From assembly GCA_022510665.1 (NCBI GenBank), contig JAFLSZ010000008.1, positions 1 through 40,422 of the forward strand: 40,422 bases of DNA, written 5' to 3'. The translations under genes and the position numbers were made by a program. This stretch comes from Lachnospiraceae bacterium. GTDB taxonomy: Bacteria; Bacillota; Clostridia; Lachnospirales; Lachnospiraceae. The notes below the pieces were generated by a model. The model saw nothing but the letters and a program-made list of their open reading frames with translations, ran no database searches and was not told where the DNA came from. Below are positions 8,808 to 21,328 of the stretch, in pieces (position 1 is the first letter of the stretch; each line of letters starts with the position of its first letter).

Positions 8808-8880
8808 AGCTGGAAATCAGACTTGAACTGACGACCCCTTCATTACGAGTGAAGTGCTCTACCGACTGAGCTATTCCAGC
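8808..8880 (-). tRNA. tRNA-Thr (anticodon CGT)
   Basis: A 73-base cloverleaf: acceptor GCTGGAA / TTCCAGC with discriminator T, D-arm AGCTCAGTCGGTAGAGC, anticodon stem CTTCA / TGAAG with loop CTCGTAA (anticodon CGT, reads ACG), and T-arm with GTTCAAGTC. The 3' CCA is not encoded. Follows tRNA-Pro by 27 bases in the same transcript. Confidence 0.95.
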
Positions 8881-8907
8881 AATCAACCAAAAAAGGTGAA
8901 AATAAAA

Positions 8908-8981
8908 TCGAGGCGACAAGATTCGAACTTGCGGCCTCTGCGTCCCGAACGCAGCGCTCTACCAAACTGAGCCACGCCTCG
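8908..8981 (-). tRNA. tRNA-Pro (anticodon CGG)
   Basis: A 74-base cloverleaf: acceptor CGAGGCG / CGCCTCG with discriminator A, D-arm GGCTCAGTTTGGTAGAGC, anticodon stem CTGCG / CGCAG with loop TTCGGGA (anticodon CGG, reads CCG), and T-arm GTTCGAATC. No encoded CCA. First member of the tRNA-Pro/tRNA-Thr transcript. Confidence 0.95.
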
Positions 8982-14436: not shown

Positions 14437-16437
14437 TTACTTTGTCAGCAGCAGCATAATTTCATTGCTGCGCTCAATAAACTTTGTCATTTCTTCCGGT
14501 GCCAGCGGCTTATGGGAAAGCATTGCCAAATCATACAGCTGTTCGCAGATAACGGAAGCATTTTTGCTCTTTTTGTGCTCAAACACATACTTTACCAGCG
14601 GATGGTTTCCGTTTAATACAAGCGTCTCGCCGTCGCCGCCGAACATCGACGGATCCGTGCCGTACATATTGTACATCTTCATCATATCCTGCATTCTGCG
14701 GCTGTCCTCGGAAAGCGTAATCATGGAAGCTACCTTCTCGTTCTTTAACTTCTCCACTTTTACGGTGAGTTTTTCCTTGCCGAGGGTTTTCTTCACCATC
14801 TCCGTCACAGTTTCGGTCAGCTTCTTCCAGTCTTCTTCACTCTCCGCCACATCTTCCTTAAATGCTTCGGTAAGGTCCGCGTCAATACGCTGAAAACGGA
14901 TTTCCTTATTCTCGTATTCCAGTTTCGAAATATACGGCTGGTCGATGTTATGGGTAAGCAGAACCGCATCCAGTCCCGCTTCCTTAAACATATTGATATA
15001 CTGGCTCTGCTGTCTTTCGTCCGTTACATAATAAACAATCTGTTTCTTTTCCCCGGAATCCTCGTCGTCTCCGCCGCCCGCCAGACTGCCGTCCGCGTTC
15101 TCTACCTCTACGGCAGGTGTTTCCGTCGAATCCTCTCCTGCGGCTTCCTTCGCTGCCTTTATATAGTCCTCTAAGGTAAGATATTTACCCTCTAAGTTCT
15201 TAAAGAGCATATATTCTTTCATCTTCTCGCAGAACTTGTCGTCCTTTAAGCAGCCGTACTTAATAAACGGGCTGATATCGTCCCAGTATTTCTCGTAAGA
15301 TTCCCGCTCTACCTTACACATACCGGAAAGCTTATCCGCTACCTTCTTTGTAATGTAATCCGAAATCTTCTTGACAAAACCGTCGTTTTGCAGCGCGCTT
15401 CTGGACACGTTAAGCGGCAGGTCCGGACAGTCAATAACGCCCTTTAACAAAAGCAGAAACTCCGGAATGACTTCCTTGATATTATCCGCGATAAATACCT
15501 GATTGCTGTAAAGTTTAATCGTACCCTCTAAATTCTCGTACTCCATATTAACTTTAGGGAAGTACAAAATACCCTTTAAATTAAACGGATAGTCCATATT
15601 TAAGTGAATCCAGAACAACGGCTCCTTATAATCATGGAACACATCACGGAAAAACTGCTTATACTCCTCCTCGGTACACTCGTTCGGATGCTTTGTCCAA
15701 AGCGGATTCGGATTATTTAACGGCTGCGGCTTCTTCTCCTCTTCCGTCTTTTCTTCACCGTCTTCCGCCTTCGGTTCTTCTTCCTTTTTCGGCGCATCTA
15801 CATTTTCAAAGTAAATCGGCGTCGGCATAAAGTAACAATACTTTTCAATAACTTCCTTCGCACGGTATTCGTTGGAAAACTCATAGCTGTCCTCATTTAA
15901 ATACAATGTAATTTCCGTACCGCGCTCCGTGCGGCTTCCTTCGGACATCACAAAATCCACACCTTCCTCGGACTCCCAGTAAACGGAAGGCTCGTCCTCT
16001 TTGTAAGACTTGGTATTAATAGTTACTTTGTGGGCTACCATAAACGCGGAATAAAATCCAAGACCGAAGTGACCGATAATACAATCCTCGTTGGCCTTGT
16101 CCTTATACTTCTCCACAAACGCCTGTGCCCCGGAAAACGCAATCTGGTTAATGTACTGCTTTACTTCTTCCGCAGTCATACCGATACCGTTATCGATAAT
16201 GGTAATTGTACTCTCCTCCGGACTTACCTTTACCGTAACTTTCCATTCATTGTCTTCCGGCAGGGAAACCTCTCCCATAATTTCCAACTTCTTCATTTTT
16301 GTAATTGCGTCACACCCGTTGGAAATTAACTCACGGAAAAAGATGTCGTGATCCGAATACAGCCATTTTTTAATAATCGGAAATATATTTTCCGAATTGA
16401 TAGACAAGCTTCCCTTTTCTTCCATAACATTGCTCAT
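14437..16437 (-). CDS. htpG: Chaperone HtpG (Hsp90)
   Basis: 666 aa from the ATG at 16437, which has AAAGGAG eight bases upstream; a longer frame to 16497 would run across the -10 box. Dimeric ATP-driven chaperone. The GHKL ATPase domain shows FFRELISNGCDAI, IIDNGIGMT, GHFGLGFYSAFMV and TEITLYL; the middle domain has PLFWIHLNMDYPFNLKGILYFPK and LNVSRSALQND with the catalytic Arg; a C-terminal dimerisation domain ends the protein. An acidic insert (KKEEEPKAEDGEEKTEEEKK) lies between N and middle domains, resembling the charged linker of eukaryotic Hsp90, and a second acidic patch (GGDDEDSGEKK) sits in the middle-to-C junction. Regulation: a perfect CIRCE lies just upstream of the promoter. Confidence 0.97.
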   Translation of the reverse strand: MSNVMEEKGSLSINSENIFPIIKKWLYSDHDIFFRELISNGCDAITKMKKLEIMGEVSLPEDNEWKVTVKVSPEESTITIIDNGIGMTAEEVKQYINQIAFSGAQAFVEKYKDKANEDCIIGHFGLGFYSAFMVAHKVTINTKSYKEDEPSVYWESEEGVDFVMSEGSRTERGTEITLYLNEDSYEFSNEYRAKEVIEKYCYFMPTPIYFENVDAPKKEEEPKAEDGEEKTEEEKKPQPLNNPNPLWTKHPNECTEEEYKQFFRDVFHDYKEPLFWIHLNMDYPFNLKGILYFPKVNMEYENLEGTIKLYSNQVFIADNIKEVIPEFLLLLKGVIDCPDLPLNVSRSALQNDGFVKKISDYITKKVADKLSGMCKVERESYEKYWDDISPFIKYGCLKDDKFCEKMKEYMLFKNLEGKYLTLEDYIKAAKEAAGEDSTETPAVEVENADGSLAGGGDDEDSGEKKQIVYYVTDERQQSQYINMFKEAGLDAVLLTHNIDQPYISKLEYENKEIRFQRIDADLTEAFKEDVAESEEDWKKLTETVTEMVKKTLGKEKLTVKVEKLKNEKVASMITLSEDSRRMQDMMKMYNMYGTDPSMFGGDGETLVLNGNHPLVKYVFEHKKSKNASVICEQLYDLAMLSHKPLAPEEMTKFIERSNEIMLLLTK

Positions 16438-16476
16438 AAATAACTCTCCTTTCGCGGATAATTTCGCTATGCTTCT

Positions 16477-16505
16477 ACTATAATACCGAATCTGCAAAAT
16501 GTCAA
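16477..16505 (-). promoter_or_regulatory. htpG promoter
   Basis: On the minus strand TTGACA (16500-16505), 17-base spacer, TATAGT (16477-16482), about 40 bases before the htpG start. The CIRCE operator lies seven bases upstream of the -35 box. Confidence 0.85.
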
Positions 16506-16512
16506 GAAAAAT

Positions 16513-16539
16513 TTAGCACTCATTCAAGATGAGTGCTAA
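16513..16539. promoter_or_regulatory. CIRCE operator (HrcA binding site)
   Basis: TTAGCACTC - nine bases - GAGTGCTAA, an exact match to the CIRCE consensus bound by the heat-shock repressor HrcA. Positioned immediately upstream of the htpG -35 box. Its right part also encodes the last residues and stop codon of the DUF5721 gene (stop at 16520-16522). Confidence 0.95.
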
Positions 16540-17011
16540 CAGTAATTCCTTTTTCCTTTAAAAAATCCTGCAATGCCTTATCCCATGCGTATTCCAACGT
16601 TTTTTCCATCGTAAAGCCCACATGGGAAACACCGCTTACCAGCCTGCATTTACCCGCCGTATATCGGATATTCAGATACAATACGGCGCCGGCTTCCTCT
16701 TTTTCCTTGCCGCATTCCCTTAAAATCCTTTCCGTCCATTCCTTCTTTGCGGCAAGCACCACGAAAAACATCCCCGGCAGGCGCTTCCCTTTTACCGTCT
16801 GAAAAAAAATTTCTTTTACTTCGCCCCAGAGCGCAAACTCTCTTGTAATATTCTCCGGTTCTTCAAAAAAATCCTTTTTCAGCCTTCCGTTTACGGATAA
16901 TTCAAAAAAAGTTTCTACCTTGGCTTCCTTTACTTCCCAGTCATCAAACAATTCACCTTTAAGCAAAACCGCCATAAACGGTTTTAATTCTTCCACATTT
17001 CCCGAAAACAT
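16520..17011 (-). CDS. DUF5721 family protein
   Basis: 163 aa, soluble, no signal peptide. The pattern ELKPFMAVLLKGELFDDWEVKEA, VNGRLKKDFF, FFQTVKGKRLPGMFFVVL matches what I recall of DUF5721, a family largely confined to Lachnospiraceae; function unknown. AAGGAG precedes the ATG. Its last codons (VSTHLE and stop) fall inside the CIRCE site that controls htpG, so there is no terminator between the two genes; some readthrough from this gene into htpG is possible when HrcA is absent. Confidence 0.7.
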   Translation of the reverse strand: MFSGNVEELKPFMAVLLKGELFDDWEVKEAKVETFFELSVNGRLKKDFFEEPENITREFALWGEVKEIFFQTVKGKRLPGMFFVVLAAKKEWTERILRECGKEKEEAGAVLYLNIRYTAGKCRLVSGVSHVGFTMEKTLEYAWDKALQDFLKEKGITVSTHLE

Positions 17012-17153: not shown

Positions 17154-17354
17154 ATGCGTGCAAGTTTTGACACTTATCGTAAGGTAGCAAAAGCATGCAG
17201 TGCTTATGAACCGATGAGCAAAGAAAGAATAAGCAACAGCTGCTGCGATACAAACGACATTTCCTGCACCAACTGCAGGCACTTTGACGAGGAAAAATAC
17301 TGCCGTCTTGATTTGTATGACCAGATTGTAGAAAACCATAACTTCGAAGATTAA
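17154..17354 (+). CDS. Small cysteine-rich protein, unknown function
   Basis: 66 aa. AAAGGAG lies about eight bases before the ATG. Seven cysteines, including a CC pair and C-x2-C (CTNCRHF) with a later C (EKYCRLD), suggest a small metal-binding or redox-sensitive protein. Acidic C-terminus. It stands alone between the DUF5721 gene (divergent) and the GH13-like gene (convergent). The frame on the opposite strand is a shadow. Family not recognised. Confidence 0.7.
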   Translation: MRASFDTYRKVAKACSAYEPMSKERISNSCCDTNDISCTNCRHFDEEKYCRLDLYDQIVENHNFED

Positions 17355-17451: not shown

Positions 17452-19452
17452 TTACAAAACTTCTTCCGAAGATTCGGAAGTTTCCGAACCTTCCTCACTG
17501 CGGGTCAGCACAACGACAGAACGCGCAGGTACTTTACAGAATAGTTCCCGGGCGGAACTATCGGCAGTAACCGCATATCTCTTTCCTTCCTGTTCACAGA
17601 TAATCTCACAGCCTGCCGAAGTATCCAACACCACTTCCCAGTCTTTCATTTTCTTATAACTCCCGGTTTCTTTCGGCAGTGCAAAAGAAAGCGGCTCCCA
17701 AAGCATATTGAACAAAAGGTAGATATCGTCTTCTTTCTCTTTTCCCTCTGCGGTATACTCGCCGCACAGCAGCACCGATACCGTGCGGCTGCACGGTGCA
17801 AAATCCGGCTGCCACAGCATCACACCGTGATAGGAAATATCAGGCACCCCGACTCCTTTCCAATCACTTTCCCTAAGACTTCTCGCCCCGCAGAGAATAC
17901 TGTGGGCTTTACGAAACGCAATCAGCTCTTTTACAAAAGCCAATTCCTCCCTACGCACTTTATTTAACCGCCAGTTTAACCATGAAACCTCGTTATCCTG
18001 ACAATACGCATTATTGTTCCCCTTTTTGGTATGCGCAAACTCGTCCCCCGCAAACAAAAGCGGTACGGACTGTGACAAAAAGACCGTGCAAAGTGCGTTC
18101 TTTTGCAGTCTTGCACGCAGCATATTGATTTTTTTCTTGGCAGTTTCCCCCTCAACCCCGCAGTTCCAGCTATGATTGTAATTCTCGCCGTCTTTGTTTT
18201 CTTCGCCGTTTTCTTCATTATGCTTACGGTCATACGCATATAAATCATACAAAGAAAAACCGTTCTGGTCCGCGATATATTGAACCTGTGCAAACTCGGG
18301 AACATCCGAACGCAGGCGGGACAAAAACTCCCCTACCATATTTTCGTCTCCCTTGACAAAGCGGCGCATTACGTTTCTGAATCCGTCATTATATACCGCG
18401 ACGCGCCTGTTCTCAAAGTCTTCACACAGTTTTTGCATACCGTCGTCATAATCCGTTACCAAAAACTTTACTCCCGACAGATACGCGTCCTCTAACAAAA
18501 GCCGCAGCGGAGTACGCGAACCGATTAACCGAAATCCGTCTGCGCCGTAAGCATACGTCCAGTACCGCAGGCAGTCCAAAACCATTCCCTGCTTTACTTT
18601 ATCGCCAAAGAAAAACTCAAAAAACACGGCAATCCCCGCTTTATGAAGCGCCGCAACACAATGACGCAGTTCCTCATCCGCGTGCGCGGTATCCGCCGCA
18701 TATGACGCTTTCGGGGCAAAATAAAAATTATTTTCGGTATACCCCCAATAGTTTACCTTCTCTACCGTCTTTATTTCTTCATGATCCTGTTCATACGCCT
18801 GCTGCGCCTTGACAAACTCGCTTCCGTAACGTTCCTCATACTGCGCCAGCTGCTTTGCGGACAAAATCCCCCGGCCTCTGCTCACCTGCATACATTCATT
18901 AAACTCATACACCGGCATCAGAAGCACCGCGTTAATACCAAGTTCCTGTAAATACGGTATTTTCTCCTCTAATCCGGCAAACGTTCCTTTATGCTTCACG
19001 CCGGAACTCGGATGCTTTGTAAATCCTCTTATATGCAGCTTATAAAATATCAACGAGGAAAAAGCGGGACAGACAAACTCTGACTCCGATTCACTTTCAT
19101 TTTCCGAGCGCGGCAGAAACGGCCGTACTTCCCTTCCGAAAGTCCCGAACACTTCCCTGCCGCATACTTTCTTCGCATACGCGTCAAAAAAAACTCCTCC
19201 GTCATTTTCAAACAAATACGTTTCGTATAAATCGGCTGTTCTTTTGGAAATCTCCGTGTAAAACACCGAACCGTTTCCGATACGGCGCATCCGGAGCCGC
19301 TTTTTTGCCGTATCCTCCGCCTTTCGAAACAACAGAAGATAACAGTCTCCTTCGCCCTCCGAAACAGCCCAAAAAATCACTTTTCCTGAATGATAACAGG
19401 CTCCCGGCATTCTGCCGTACATTCCCTGTCTGAGTTGCTCTGTGTATCCCAC
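17452..19452 (-). CDS. GH13 isoamylase/GlgX-like protein without catalytic residues (probable pseudoenzyme)
   Basis: 666 aa from a GTG at 19452 that has GGAGG five bases upstream; an ATG eight codons earlier (19476) has no ribosome site but remains possible. Overall like glycogen debranching enzymes: an N-terminal CBM48-like domain, barrel with FYKLHIRGFTKH and YWGYTENNFYFAP, the debranching-enzyme loop RKHNEENGEENKDGEN + SWNCGVEG, LLFAGDEFAHTKKGNNNAYCQ, and a C-terminal beta domain. All four catalytic regions are altered: region I reads EFFFGD where DVVYNH is usual; region II GFRLIGS lacks the nucleophile Asp (Ile310); region III FLVTDYDDG lacks the acid Glu; region IV ADQNG replaces AHDG. 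The frame is otherwise intact over its full length, arguing against simple decay. Likely a carbohydrate-binding or regulatory relative. It starts 41 bases after the ABC-F gene on the same strand. Confidence 0.88.
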   Translation of the reverse strand: MGYTEQLRQGMYGRMPGACYHSGKVIFWAVSEGEGDCYLLLFRKAEDTAKKRLRMRRIGNGSVFYTEISKRTADLYETYLFENDGGVFFDAYAKKVCGREVFGTFGREVRPFLPRSENESESESEFVCPAFSSLIFYKLHIRGFTKHPSSGVKHKGTFAGLEEKIPYLQELGINAVLLMPVYEFNECMQVSRGRGILSAKQLAQYEERYGSEFVKAQQAYEQDHEEIKTVEKVNYWGYTENNFYFAPKASYAADTAHADEELRHCVAALHKAGIAVFFEFFFGDKVKQGMVLDCLRYWTYAYGADGFRLIGSRTPLRLLLEDAYLSGVKFLVTDYDDGMQKLCEDFENRRVAVYNDGFRNVMRRFVKGDENMVGEFLSRLRSDVPEFAQVQYIADQNGFSLYDLYAYDRKHNEENGEENKDGENYNHSWNCGVEGETAKKKINMLRARLQKNALCTVFLSQSVPLLFAGDEFAHTKKGNNNAYCQDNEVSWLNWRLNKVRREELAFVKELIAFRKAHSILCGARSLRESDWKGVGVPDISYHGVMLWQPDFAPCSRTVSVLLCGEYTAEGKEKEDDIYLLFNMLWEPLSFALPKETGSYKKMKDWEVVLDTSAGCEIICEQEGKRYAVTADSSARELFCKVPARSVVVLTRSEEGSETSESSEEVL

Positions 19453-19493
19453 AGCATCCTCCGTTCTCCGCTTCATATTTTTATGGCAGTTTA

Positions 19494-21140
19494 TTATTCT
19501 TCGTCCACCGTTTCTTCTTCCGGCTTTACCTGAAGTGCCTGACGCTTTCTTGCCATTTCGTCACTGTCTAAATACTCGTCATAGGTCGAAACTTTATCAA
19601 TCATACTGCCGTTCGGAAGAATTTCAATGATACGGTTCGCGATTGTCTGAATAAACTGGTGGTCCTGAGACGCGAAAATAATTACGCCGGGGAACTTAAT
19701 CAAACCGTTATTCAGCGCGGTAATGGATTCCATATCCAAATGGTTTGTCGGCTCGTCCATCAACAGGACATTGGAGGCCATTAACATCATCTTTGAAAGC
19801 ATAACACGCACACGCTCGCCTCCGGAAAGCACGTTTACCTTTTTTACGCCCTCCTCGCCGGCAAACAGCATACGCCCCATAAAACCGCGGACATAGGTGA
19901 CATCCTTTTCCGGGGAATACGGCATCAGCCAGTCTACAATGGAAAGCTCCGAAGCAAAATCCTTCGTGTTATCCTTAGGGAAATACGCCTGACTGGTGGT
20001 AATACCCCACTTACAGCTCCCCTCATCCGGCTCCATTTCGCCCGCCAGAATCTTAAACAACGTGGTAATCGCAAGGGTATTGGCACCTACCAGCGCGATT
20101 TTATCCTCTCTGCCTACGATAAAGGAAAGATTGTCCAGTACCTTTACTCCGTCAATCGTCTTGCTTAAATTCGTAACCGTCAGTACCTCATTTCCGATTT
20201 CACGGCTCGGTCTGAAATCAATATACGGATATTTTCTGGACGAAGGACGGATTTCATCCAGTTCAATCTTTTCCAACGCACGCTTACGGGACGTTGCCTG
20301 CTTGGACTTGGACGCGTTTGCGGAGAAACGCTGGATAAACTCCTGCAGTTCCTTAATCTTTTCTTCCTTCTTCTTATTTGCTTCCTTCATCTGCTTAATC
20401 ATAAGCTGGGAAGACTCATACCAGAAATCGTAATTGCCCGCATATAACTGAATCTTCGCGTAATCAATATCTGCGATATGCGTACAAACCTTATTCAAAA
20501 AGTAACGGTCATGGGAAACCACAATTACCGTATTGTCGAAGTTAATCAAAAACTCCTCCAGCCACCGGATTGCTTCCAAATCCAGATGGTTTGTCGGCTC
20601 GTCCAATAAAAGAATATCCGGATTTCCGAACAATGCCTGCGCAAGCAGCACCTTTACCTTTTCGCTTGCCTTTAACTCGCTCATCATCTTATAATGAAGC
20701 TCCGTCTCAATTCCGAGGCCGTTTAACAGAGTCGCCGCGTCGGACTCGGCTTCCCAGCCGTTTAAAGTTGCAAACTCGGCTTCCAGTTCGCTTGCCTTAA
20801 TACCGTCTTCCTCGGTAAAGTCTTCCTTCGCGTAAATCGCGTCCTTCTCTTTCATAATATCGTACAGACGCTGATTTCCCATAATCACGGTATCCAATAC
20901 CGGATACGCGTCATACTTGAAGTGATCCTGCTGTAAAAAGGAAAGACGCTGTCCCGGCGTAATAATAATCTCTCCCTTTGACGGCTCCAGCTGTCCGGTC
21001 AGAATTTTTAAAAAGGTGGACTTGCCTGCTCCGTTTGCGCCAATCAAACCATAGCAGTTCCCCTCCGTAAACTTAATATTCACATCTTCAAACAATGCTC
21101 TTTTTCCTAAGCGTAACGTAACATTACTTGCCTGTATCAT
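19494..21140 (-). CDS. ABC-F family ATPase, YkpA/YbiT type
   Basis: 548 aa from the ATG at 21140 (AAAGGA eight bases upstream; the frame to 21305 would start inside the neighbouring promoter region). Two ATPase domains in one chain without membrane segments, joined by a charged linker (residues ~245-300, KKKEEKIKELQEF): ABC-F proteins act on the ribosome. Domain 1: Walker A GANGAGKST (34-42), a signature reduced to LKASE (156-160), Walker B DILLLDEPTNHLD. Domain 2: Walker A changed to GANTLAITT without Lys (352-360), signature LSGGE, Walker B VLLMDEPTNHLD, and SQDH where SHDH is usual. No known resistance-type extension; a housekeeping translation factor is most likely. Confidence 0.93.
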   Translation of the reverse strand: MIQASNVTLRLGKRALFEDVNIKFTEGNCYGLIGANGAGKSTFLKILTGQLEPSKGEIIITPGQRLSFLQQDHFKYDAYPVLDTVIMGNQRLYDIMKEKDAIYAKEDFTEEDGIKASELEAEFATLNGWEAESDAATLLNGLGIETELHYKMMSELKASEKVKVLLAQALFGNPDILLLDEPTNHLDLEAIRWLEEFLINFDNTVIVVSHDRYFLNKVCTHIADIDYAKIQLYAGNYDFWYESSQLMIKQMKEANKKKEEKIKELQEFIQRFSANASKSKQATSRKRALEKIELDEIRPSSRKYPYIDFRPSREIGNEVLTVTNLSKTIDGVKVLDNLSFIVGREDKIALVGANTLAITTLFKILAGEMEPDEGSCKWGITTSQAYFPKDNTKDFASELSIVDWLMPYSPEKDVTYVRGFMGRMLFAGEEGVKKVNVLSGGERVRVMLSKMMLMASNVLLMDEPTNHLDMESITALNNGLIKFPGVIIFASQDHQFIQTIANRIIEILPNGSMIDKVSTYDEYLDSDEMARKRQALQVKPEEETVDEE

Positions 21141-21189
21141 ACTTGTAATCCTTTCCTCTATTCCTGTTTGCGAAAATACTCTATTATAT

Positions 21190-21217
21190 ATTGTAACGTA
21201 TATAGAAAAAATTGCAA
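21190..21217 (-). promoter_or_regulatory. Promoter of the ABC-F gene
   Basis: On the minus strand TTGCAA (21212-21217), 16-base spacer, TACAAT (21190-21195), 50 bases before the ABC-F start. Directly abuts the short MITE-like copy. Confidence 0.6.
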
Positions 21218-21284
21218 GCAGTTTTTCCGCAAAATTCAAATTTATACACTTTTTAAAGCGATTAAAAAACTGCGGAAACTCGGG
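21218..21284 (+). repeat. MITE-like repeat, short copy 3
   Basis: Inverted ends AGTTTTTCCGCA (21220-21231) and TGCGGAAACTCG (21271-21282). The right half, TTTTTAAAGCGATTAAAAA then CTGCGGAAACT, matches the right end of 29031-29185. The internal palindrome of the full copies is absent. It lies between the divergent promoters of the ABC-F and PutP genes. Confidence 0.65.
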
Positions 21285-21299
21285 CAAAACTTGTAAACC

Positions 21300-21328
21300 T
21301 TGCACCGATTGTCTTTTTATGGTATAAT
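21300..21328 (+). promoter_or_regulatory. Promoter of the putP-like gene
   Basis: TTGCAC (21300-21305), 17-base spacer, TATAAT (21323-21328), leaving a leader of about 80 bases before the ATG at 21413. Confidence 0.7.

Follow-up and report, generated by a model that had tools for sequence, protein, structure and literature searches.

A GlgX-like protein conserved in Lachnospiraceae without the catalytic triad is a candidate glycogen-binding pseudoenzyme

Introduction

GlgD is a degenerate partner in the Firmicutes. It is the regulatory paralogue of GlgC in the bacterial glycogen pathway (PMC10395257). The closest precedent for the protein described here is plant ISA2, a non-catalytic GH13_11 protein of ancient, single origin that has lost its nucleophile and is under selection (PMC12510319). 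ISA2 has been non-catalytic since the green-plant ancestor and affects soluble versus insoluble glucan (PMC12510319). Among GlgX proteins, that of Streptomyces venezuelae (SvGlgX), which is regulated by c-di-GMP and has D342/E378/D450 as catalytic residues, has been described with acarbose bound: Trp222, Tyr224, His271, Asp342, Glu378, Trp380, and His449 surround the -1 sugar, Arg212, Glu470, Asn534, and Tyr536 contact other sugars, and c-di-GMP is contacted by E47, R49, R56, R438, and R579 (PMC9530166). Two glgX homologues are listed for Blautia obeum in a review of gut commensals (PMC10395257). In the open-access literature that we searched, no paper on an inactive GlgX in bacteria was found. 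Here we describe a GlgX-like protein encoded in a 40,422-nucleotide stretch of a Lachnospiraceae genome (hereafter the window), together with its relatives across the family.

Results and discussion

The gene and its replaced catalytic site

The GlgX-like gene lies at 17452..19476 on the minus strand; read on the plus strand, 17452-19452 is a stop-rich frame. The open reading frame is uninterrupted and encodes 674 amino acids from an ATG at 19476 or 666 from a GTG at 19452. The GTG is the likely start, with a GGAGG ribosome-binding site at 5-nt spacing that is better than that of the in-frame ATG, and from there to 17452 the frame is intact over 666 codons, as the initial annotation had stated. 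Residue numbers used here count from the ATG. The protein matches TIGR02100 (GlgX, NCBIfam) at E 3.5e-87 and 293.1 bits, below half of the equivalog cut-off of 640.9 bits, and the best stretch of the Pfam Alpha-amylase model covers the barrel start only (residues 161-191). The E-value, the intact frame, and the 103 relatives described below rule out a chance match or mis-framing.

The protein shares with GlgX and isoamylase (GH13_11) the motifs WGY, NGExNxDG, WNCGxEG, GDE, and GNNNxYCQD, and its framework motifs RKHNEENGEENKDG, SWNCGVEG, and FAGDEFAHTKKG are intact. The four catalytic regions, which the initial annotation had read as replaced, all carry the quoted substitutions when aligned with canonical GlgX (all on the minus strand). 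Region I reads EFFFGD in place of DVVFNH (residues 287-292; 18601..18618), region II reads GFRLIGS with Ile318 at the nucleophile position (residues 314-320; 18517..18537), region III reads FLVTDYDDG with Thr341 where the acid Glu belongs (residues 338-346; 18439..18465), and region IV reads ADQNG with Gln404-Asn405 for His-Asp (residues 402-406; 18259..18273). The triad sites are therefore Ile/Thr/Asn in place of Asp-Glu-Asp. Also absent, and unseen in that first reading, are approximately 44 residues between regions I and II, which leave a gap in the alignment after EFFFGD. We considered catalytic residues supplied from other positions and rejected them: the alignment shows no nearby conserved Asp or Glu in their place, and variation at the barrel-end positions is unconstrained.

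Relatives and single origin

We searched 250 genomes of the family (249 genera, the window's own included) and obtained matches at E<=1e-20 in 202. Sequences from the family matches and from named genomes were sorted by motif into 103 inactive and 73 canonical proteins, and two HMMs built for these types cleanly part the sequences fetched later (inactive proteins, 428-849 bits with the inactive-type model versus 244-512 with the canonical model; canonical proteins, 566-573 versus 1011-1103 bits). The nucleophile Asp, the acid Glu, and the region I His are present in all 73 canonical proteins and the stabilizing Asp of region IV in 72. Among the 103 inactive proteins, the three triad residues are found in 1, 13, and 16, respectively, and His is outside the seven commonest residues at the region I site. 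The full triad occurs in none of the 103, the nucleophile Asp is missing from 102, and 76 have no triad residue; Glu and/or Asp remain at one or two sites in 26 proteins without the nucleophile, and the single protein with Asp at the nucleophile site (L021) has lost the other two. Because these counts extend across 103 inactive and 73 canonical proteins, the catalytic loss is not a quirk of a single gene. Every inactive protein has a spacing of 21-23 from region I to region II, versus a median and minimum of 66 in the canonical set, and 43-45 residues are gone from all 103.

We built a maximum-likelihood tree from 68 inactive and 73 canonical proteins with three pullulanases as outgroup (144 in all), leaving out the catalytic columns; all 68 inactive proteins fall in one clade with an SH-aLRT of 100. 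As judged from these sequences, the triad and the region I-II stretch were lost once, in a Lachnospiraceae ancestor. A class-wide search of 245 genomes found the inactive type in seven of nine genomes from the window's family and in none of 236 others, and three matches outside the family were all canonical. Within the class, the inactive type is confined to the Lachnospiraceae, most of whose members carry the gene: approximately 195 of the 250 family genomes have it, an estimate for which under half were read individually and the others by search score. Among the 52 weakest family matches, five genomes have canonical GlgX only and one match is fragmentary. The window protein thus differs from GlgX (TIGR02100) in its missing triad, its missing stretch of approximately 44 residues, its score (293 versus 641 bits), and its separate clade, and its database listing as a debranching enzyme is probably wrong.

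Fold and glucan contacts

An AF2 model from a 68-row alignment (pLDDT 88.7, pTM 0.89) has the full-length GlgX/isoamylase fold. Among PDB entries it matches ISA1 and GlgX best (Z 45-50, rmsd 2.0-2.4 Å, approximately 535-557 residues), with rice ISA1 at the top (Z 50). Model and PDB comparison place the three-domain fold of GH13_11, namely a CBM48-like domain, a barrel, and a C-terminal beta-sandwich, in the window protein as a full-length structural match (Z 46-50). The N-terminal CBM48-like beta-sandwich spans approximately residues 22-130 (19087..19413, minus strand), with modeled strands at 25-96 and PDB alignments starting from residue 21-22. The model shows a fold kept despite the loss of the triad and, with the intact motifs, bears out the well-kept debranching framework of the initial annotation.

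We mapped the SvGlgX contacts by alignment to 7u39, where the chain index was taken as the published number plus 3 from the motifs. The equivalents of Trp222 and Tyr224 lie in Trp244-Gly-Tyr246 (18739..18747, minus strand); Trp is present in 103/103 inactive proteins and Tyr in 94/103, with Phe in the remaining nine. Glu470 corresponds to Glu425 in the conserved NEENGEENKDGENYNHSWNCGVEG loop (residues 420-443; 18148..18219, minus strand), which lies in the lowest-dN region, and is Glu in 102/103 inactive but only 44/73 canonical proteins. Asn534 and Tyr536 correspond to Asn489 and Tyr491 in the GDEF...GNNNAYCQD segment (residues 477-494; 17995..18048, minus strand), with Asn in 101/101 and Tyr in 97/101 filled inactive rows (2 of 103 gapped). 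Leaving aside the catalytic residues and Trp380, SvGlgX has six listed glucan contacts: five show 91-100% identity in the inactive proteins, and the sixth, Arg212, is unalignable. The equivalents of His271, Asp342, and Glu378, in contrast, are lost from the inactive proteins, and those of Trp380 and His449 remain in 35/103 and 33/103. This combination of a dead center and a live rim of kept outer contacts is the chief reason for which we propose glucan binding, although the kept residues could be structural. We found no support for c-di-GMP sensing as in Streptomyces GlgX: the segment of contact R438 is a gap in the alignment of the window protein, and the N-terminal contacts are unalignable.

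Glycogen genes and proposed function

We favor, with moderate confidence, the reading that this is an ancient, Lachnospiraceae-specific GlgX paralogue, a GH13_11 pseudoenzyme that would bind glycogen as a regulator or scaffold without catalysis; from its sequence, binding or regulation of glycogen is the more likely role. The initial annotation had suggested glycogen binding, sensing, or scaffolding, roles that are plausible and agree with the retention of the outer subsites. The protein would be cytosolic, and its outer subsites may grip branched alpha-1,4/1,6-glucan without cutting it. As a regulator it could report branch or chain state to another protein; alternatively, as a scaffold it could position glycogen enzymes. 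Either role would resemble that of plant ISA2 and would accord with GlgD as the regulatory partner of GlgC. GlgD offers the precedent of a regulatory paralogue in the glycogen pathway but differs in enzyme, fold, and step.

The genomic context of glycogen metabolism gives some indication in the same direction. GlgC scored over the cut-off in 240/250 and GlgA in 242/250 family genomes. The four genomes in which both are absent (G020, G154, G186, G216) also have no GlgX-like gene (P about 0.001-0.002), with three of the four only 67-87% complete, and this co-absence is suggestive of a link to glycogen. GlgC alone is clearly absent in eight genomes, two of them with a match (Fisher P 8e-4, any GlgX-family match counted). 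Against the glycogen reading, G033 and G168 keep the gene without GlgC, and the set of glycogen-null genomes is small, with some of them incomplete. In the window's genome we found GlgC, GlgA, two GlgB, and GlgP.

Gene neighborhood

A second reading holds that the protein is non-catalytic, has lost glucan binding, and performs a protein-protein job outside glycogen, for example with ABC-F, DUF5662, TraX, DUF5721, or HtpG. Its appeal comes from the tight linkage to such genes. Directly upstream of the GlgX-like gene, the window has an ABC-F ATPase (PRK15064/YbiT-like; 19494..21305, minus strand; 677 bits to NF011646), which is co-directional and ends 41 bases from the GTG, as first noted, or 17 from the ATG. 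The window's clade has the order ABC-F, GlgX-like gene, DUF5721, HtpG. We surveyed 68 loci. A co-directional ABC-F immediately precedes the GlgX-like gene at 25 of them, with 11 copies of the window type and 14 from a second subfamily; at seven the adjacent upstream ABC-F is divergent, and the others have different neighbors. The proposed link to ABC-F is therefore weak: it stands in the window's clade, but across the family a conserved ABC-F operon is only partial. Directly downstream, DUF5662 is found in 21 loci (with three more behind TraX, approximately 24/68 in all), TraX in 17, and DUF5721 in six. No GlgA, GlgB, GlgP, or pullulanase gene was recognized beside the gene at the 68 loci, and L157, with a canonical-type GlgX 1.6 kb away, is the sole locus at which the survey, covering GlgA, GlgB, GlgP, GlgX, and pullulanase, found another glycogen gene nearby, which favors a role outside glycogen and weighs against our preferred reading. 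The neighbors, however, vary by clade, whereas the glucan-contact residues are almost invariant, and the gene is missing from all four glycogen-null genomes. We therefore regard a role outside glycogen as unlikely.

Several features of these loci deserve mention in their own right. DUF5721 and then HtpG lie downstream of the GlgX-like gene (window 14437-17011, minus strand), an order that recurs in L010, L030, L039, and L149. Between DUF5721 and the GlgX-like gene is a 66-aa Cys-rich ORF (MRASFDTYRKVAKACSAYEPMSKERISNSCCD...; window 17154-17354, plus strand) with AAAGGAG 7 nt upstream, and two tRNA genes (Rfam) are located at window 8808-8981 on the minus strand. The second ABC-F, approximately 30% identical, replaces the window type upstream in L013, L014, L017, L040, L160, L164, L165, and L168; L040 has both types, which suggests an ancestral order of ABC-F/ABC-F/GlgX-like. 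DUF5662 (PF18907), with an HD-like 'HDLSKYSW' motif, is downstream in L151, L163, L157, and approximately 21 other loci; in many Lachnospiraceae the gap to the inactive GlgX is -46 to +43 nt, and DUF5662 is a possible functional partner. TraX-family genes (PF05857) lie directly behind the inactive GlgX in L012, L022, L057, and 14 other loci, often overlapping or a few bases apart. No paper on DUF5721 or DUF5662 was found in the open-access literature searched.

A more speculative version of the glycogen reading, to which we give a low probability, is that of a dead-debrancher-derived glycogen sensor that signals branch or chain state via a clade-varying partner (DUF5662, TraX, ABC-F, or DUF5721). 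If true, this would be a glycogen control layer not known in bacteria.

Alternative activities and selection

It is improbable that the protein gained a new enzymatic activity by moving its active site to Lys256, Asp538, His550, and Trp555. The 68 inactive sequences, unlike canonical GlgX, conserve Lys256 (98.5%), Asp538 (100%), and Trp555 (98.5%), and the Asp538 region is a gap in most canonical rows. Yet the four residues form no recognizable new motif and could be structural, and free variation at the barrel-end catalytic positions is as expected without chemistry.

An ISA2-type subunit, functional only in complex with a catalytic GlgX or pullulanase, has even less in its favor and we consider it very unlikely. 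The fold and the ISA1/ISA2 heterocomplex provide precedent (PMC12510319), and ISA2, which partners ISA1, shares the ancient loss of the nucleophile and most other catalytic residues in a protein that was kept. Of 30 genomes that carry the inactive protein, 11 also have a canonical GlgX, and pullulanase-like matches occur in several of the rest. The Lachnospiraceae protein, however, is bacterial and often found in genomes without an active GlgX: 19 of the 30 have no canonical GlgX match, including the window's own 86%-complete draft, where searches found neither canonical GlgX nor pullulanase, and G115, G171, G127, G177, and G134, which are 97-100% complete. The protein is therefore not just a silent subunit of a GlgX heteromer, and an obligate partnership with canonical GlgX is rejected for most genomes. 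The extra N-terminal beta-sandwich of ISA2 (PMC12510319) is absent from the 674-aa protein, in which residues 21-664 correspond to the three GlgX domains. The Lachnospiraceae family profile scores ISA1 at 437 bits versus 230 for ISA2; as judged by these profile scores, the greater nearness to ISA1 points to an apparently independent origin.

Decay under relaxed selection, for which the faster evolution than the neighboring genes (67% identity to the same-genus copy versus 97% for ABC-F) and the variable N terminus might speak, has almost nothing left to recommend it: nearly all of the 150 top family matches have open frames, 31 columns are invariant among the 68 inactive sequences, and dN/dS is approximately 0.1. 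Rough estimates for the window gene, with dS near or at saturation, are 0.09 versus the same-genus copy L010 (67% identity) and 0.14 versus L039 (65%). Constraint is strongest at residues 396-505 (dN 0.06-0.09), and the N terminus evolves fastest (dN 0.46-0.48); both ABC-F and HtpG evolve far more slowly than the GlgX-like gene. These comparisons show that purifying selection has kept the gene in the majority of family members. The suggestion that selection favors a non-catalytic job is strongly backed by the single clade, the 103 relatives, the open frames, the low dN/dS, and the kept contacts.

Implications for glycogen metabolism in Lachnospiraceae

Because proteins of this type score as GlgX-like, counting glgX by homology in gut bacteria may give too high an estimate of debranching capacity; the window's genome and others like it have GlgC, GlgA, GlgB, and GlgP, yet no recognizable active GlgX. 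Plant ISA2 helps decide between starch and soluble glucan, and a second, apparently independent origin of such a protein is now seen in a dominant gut family. With no obligate active partner, the Lachnospiraceae protein would offer a simpler system for asking what a dead debranching enzyme does.
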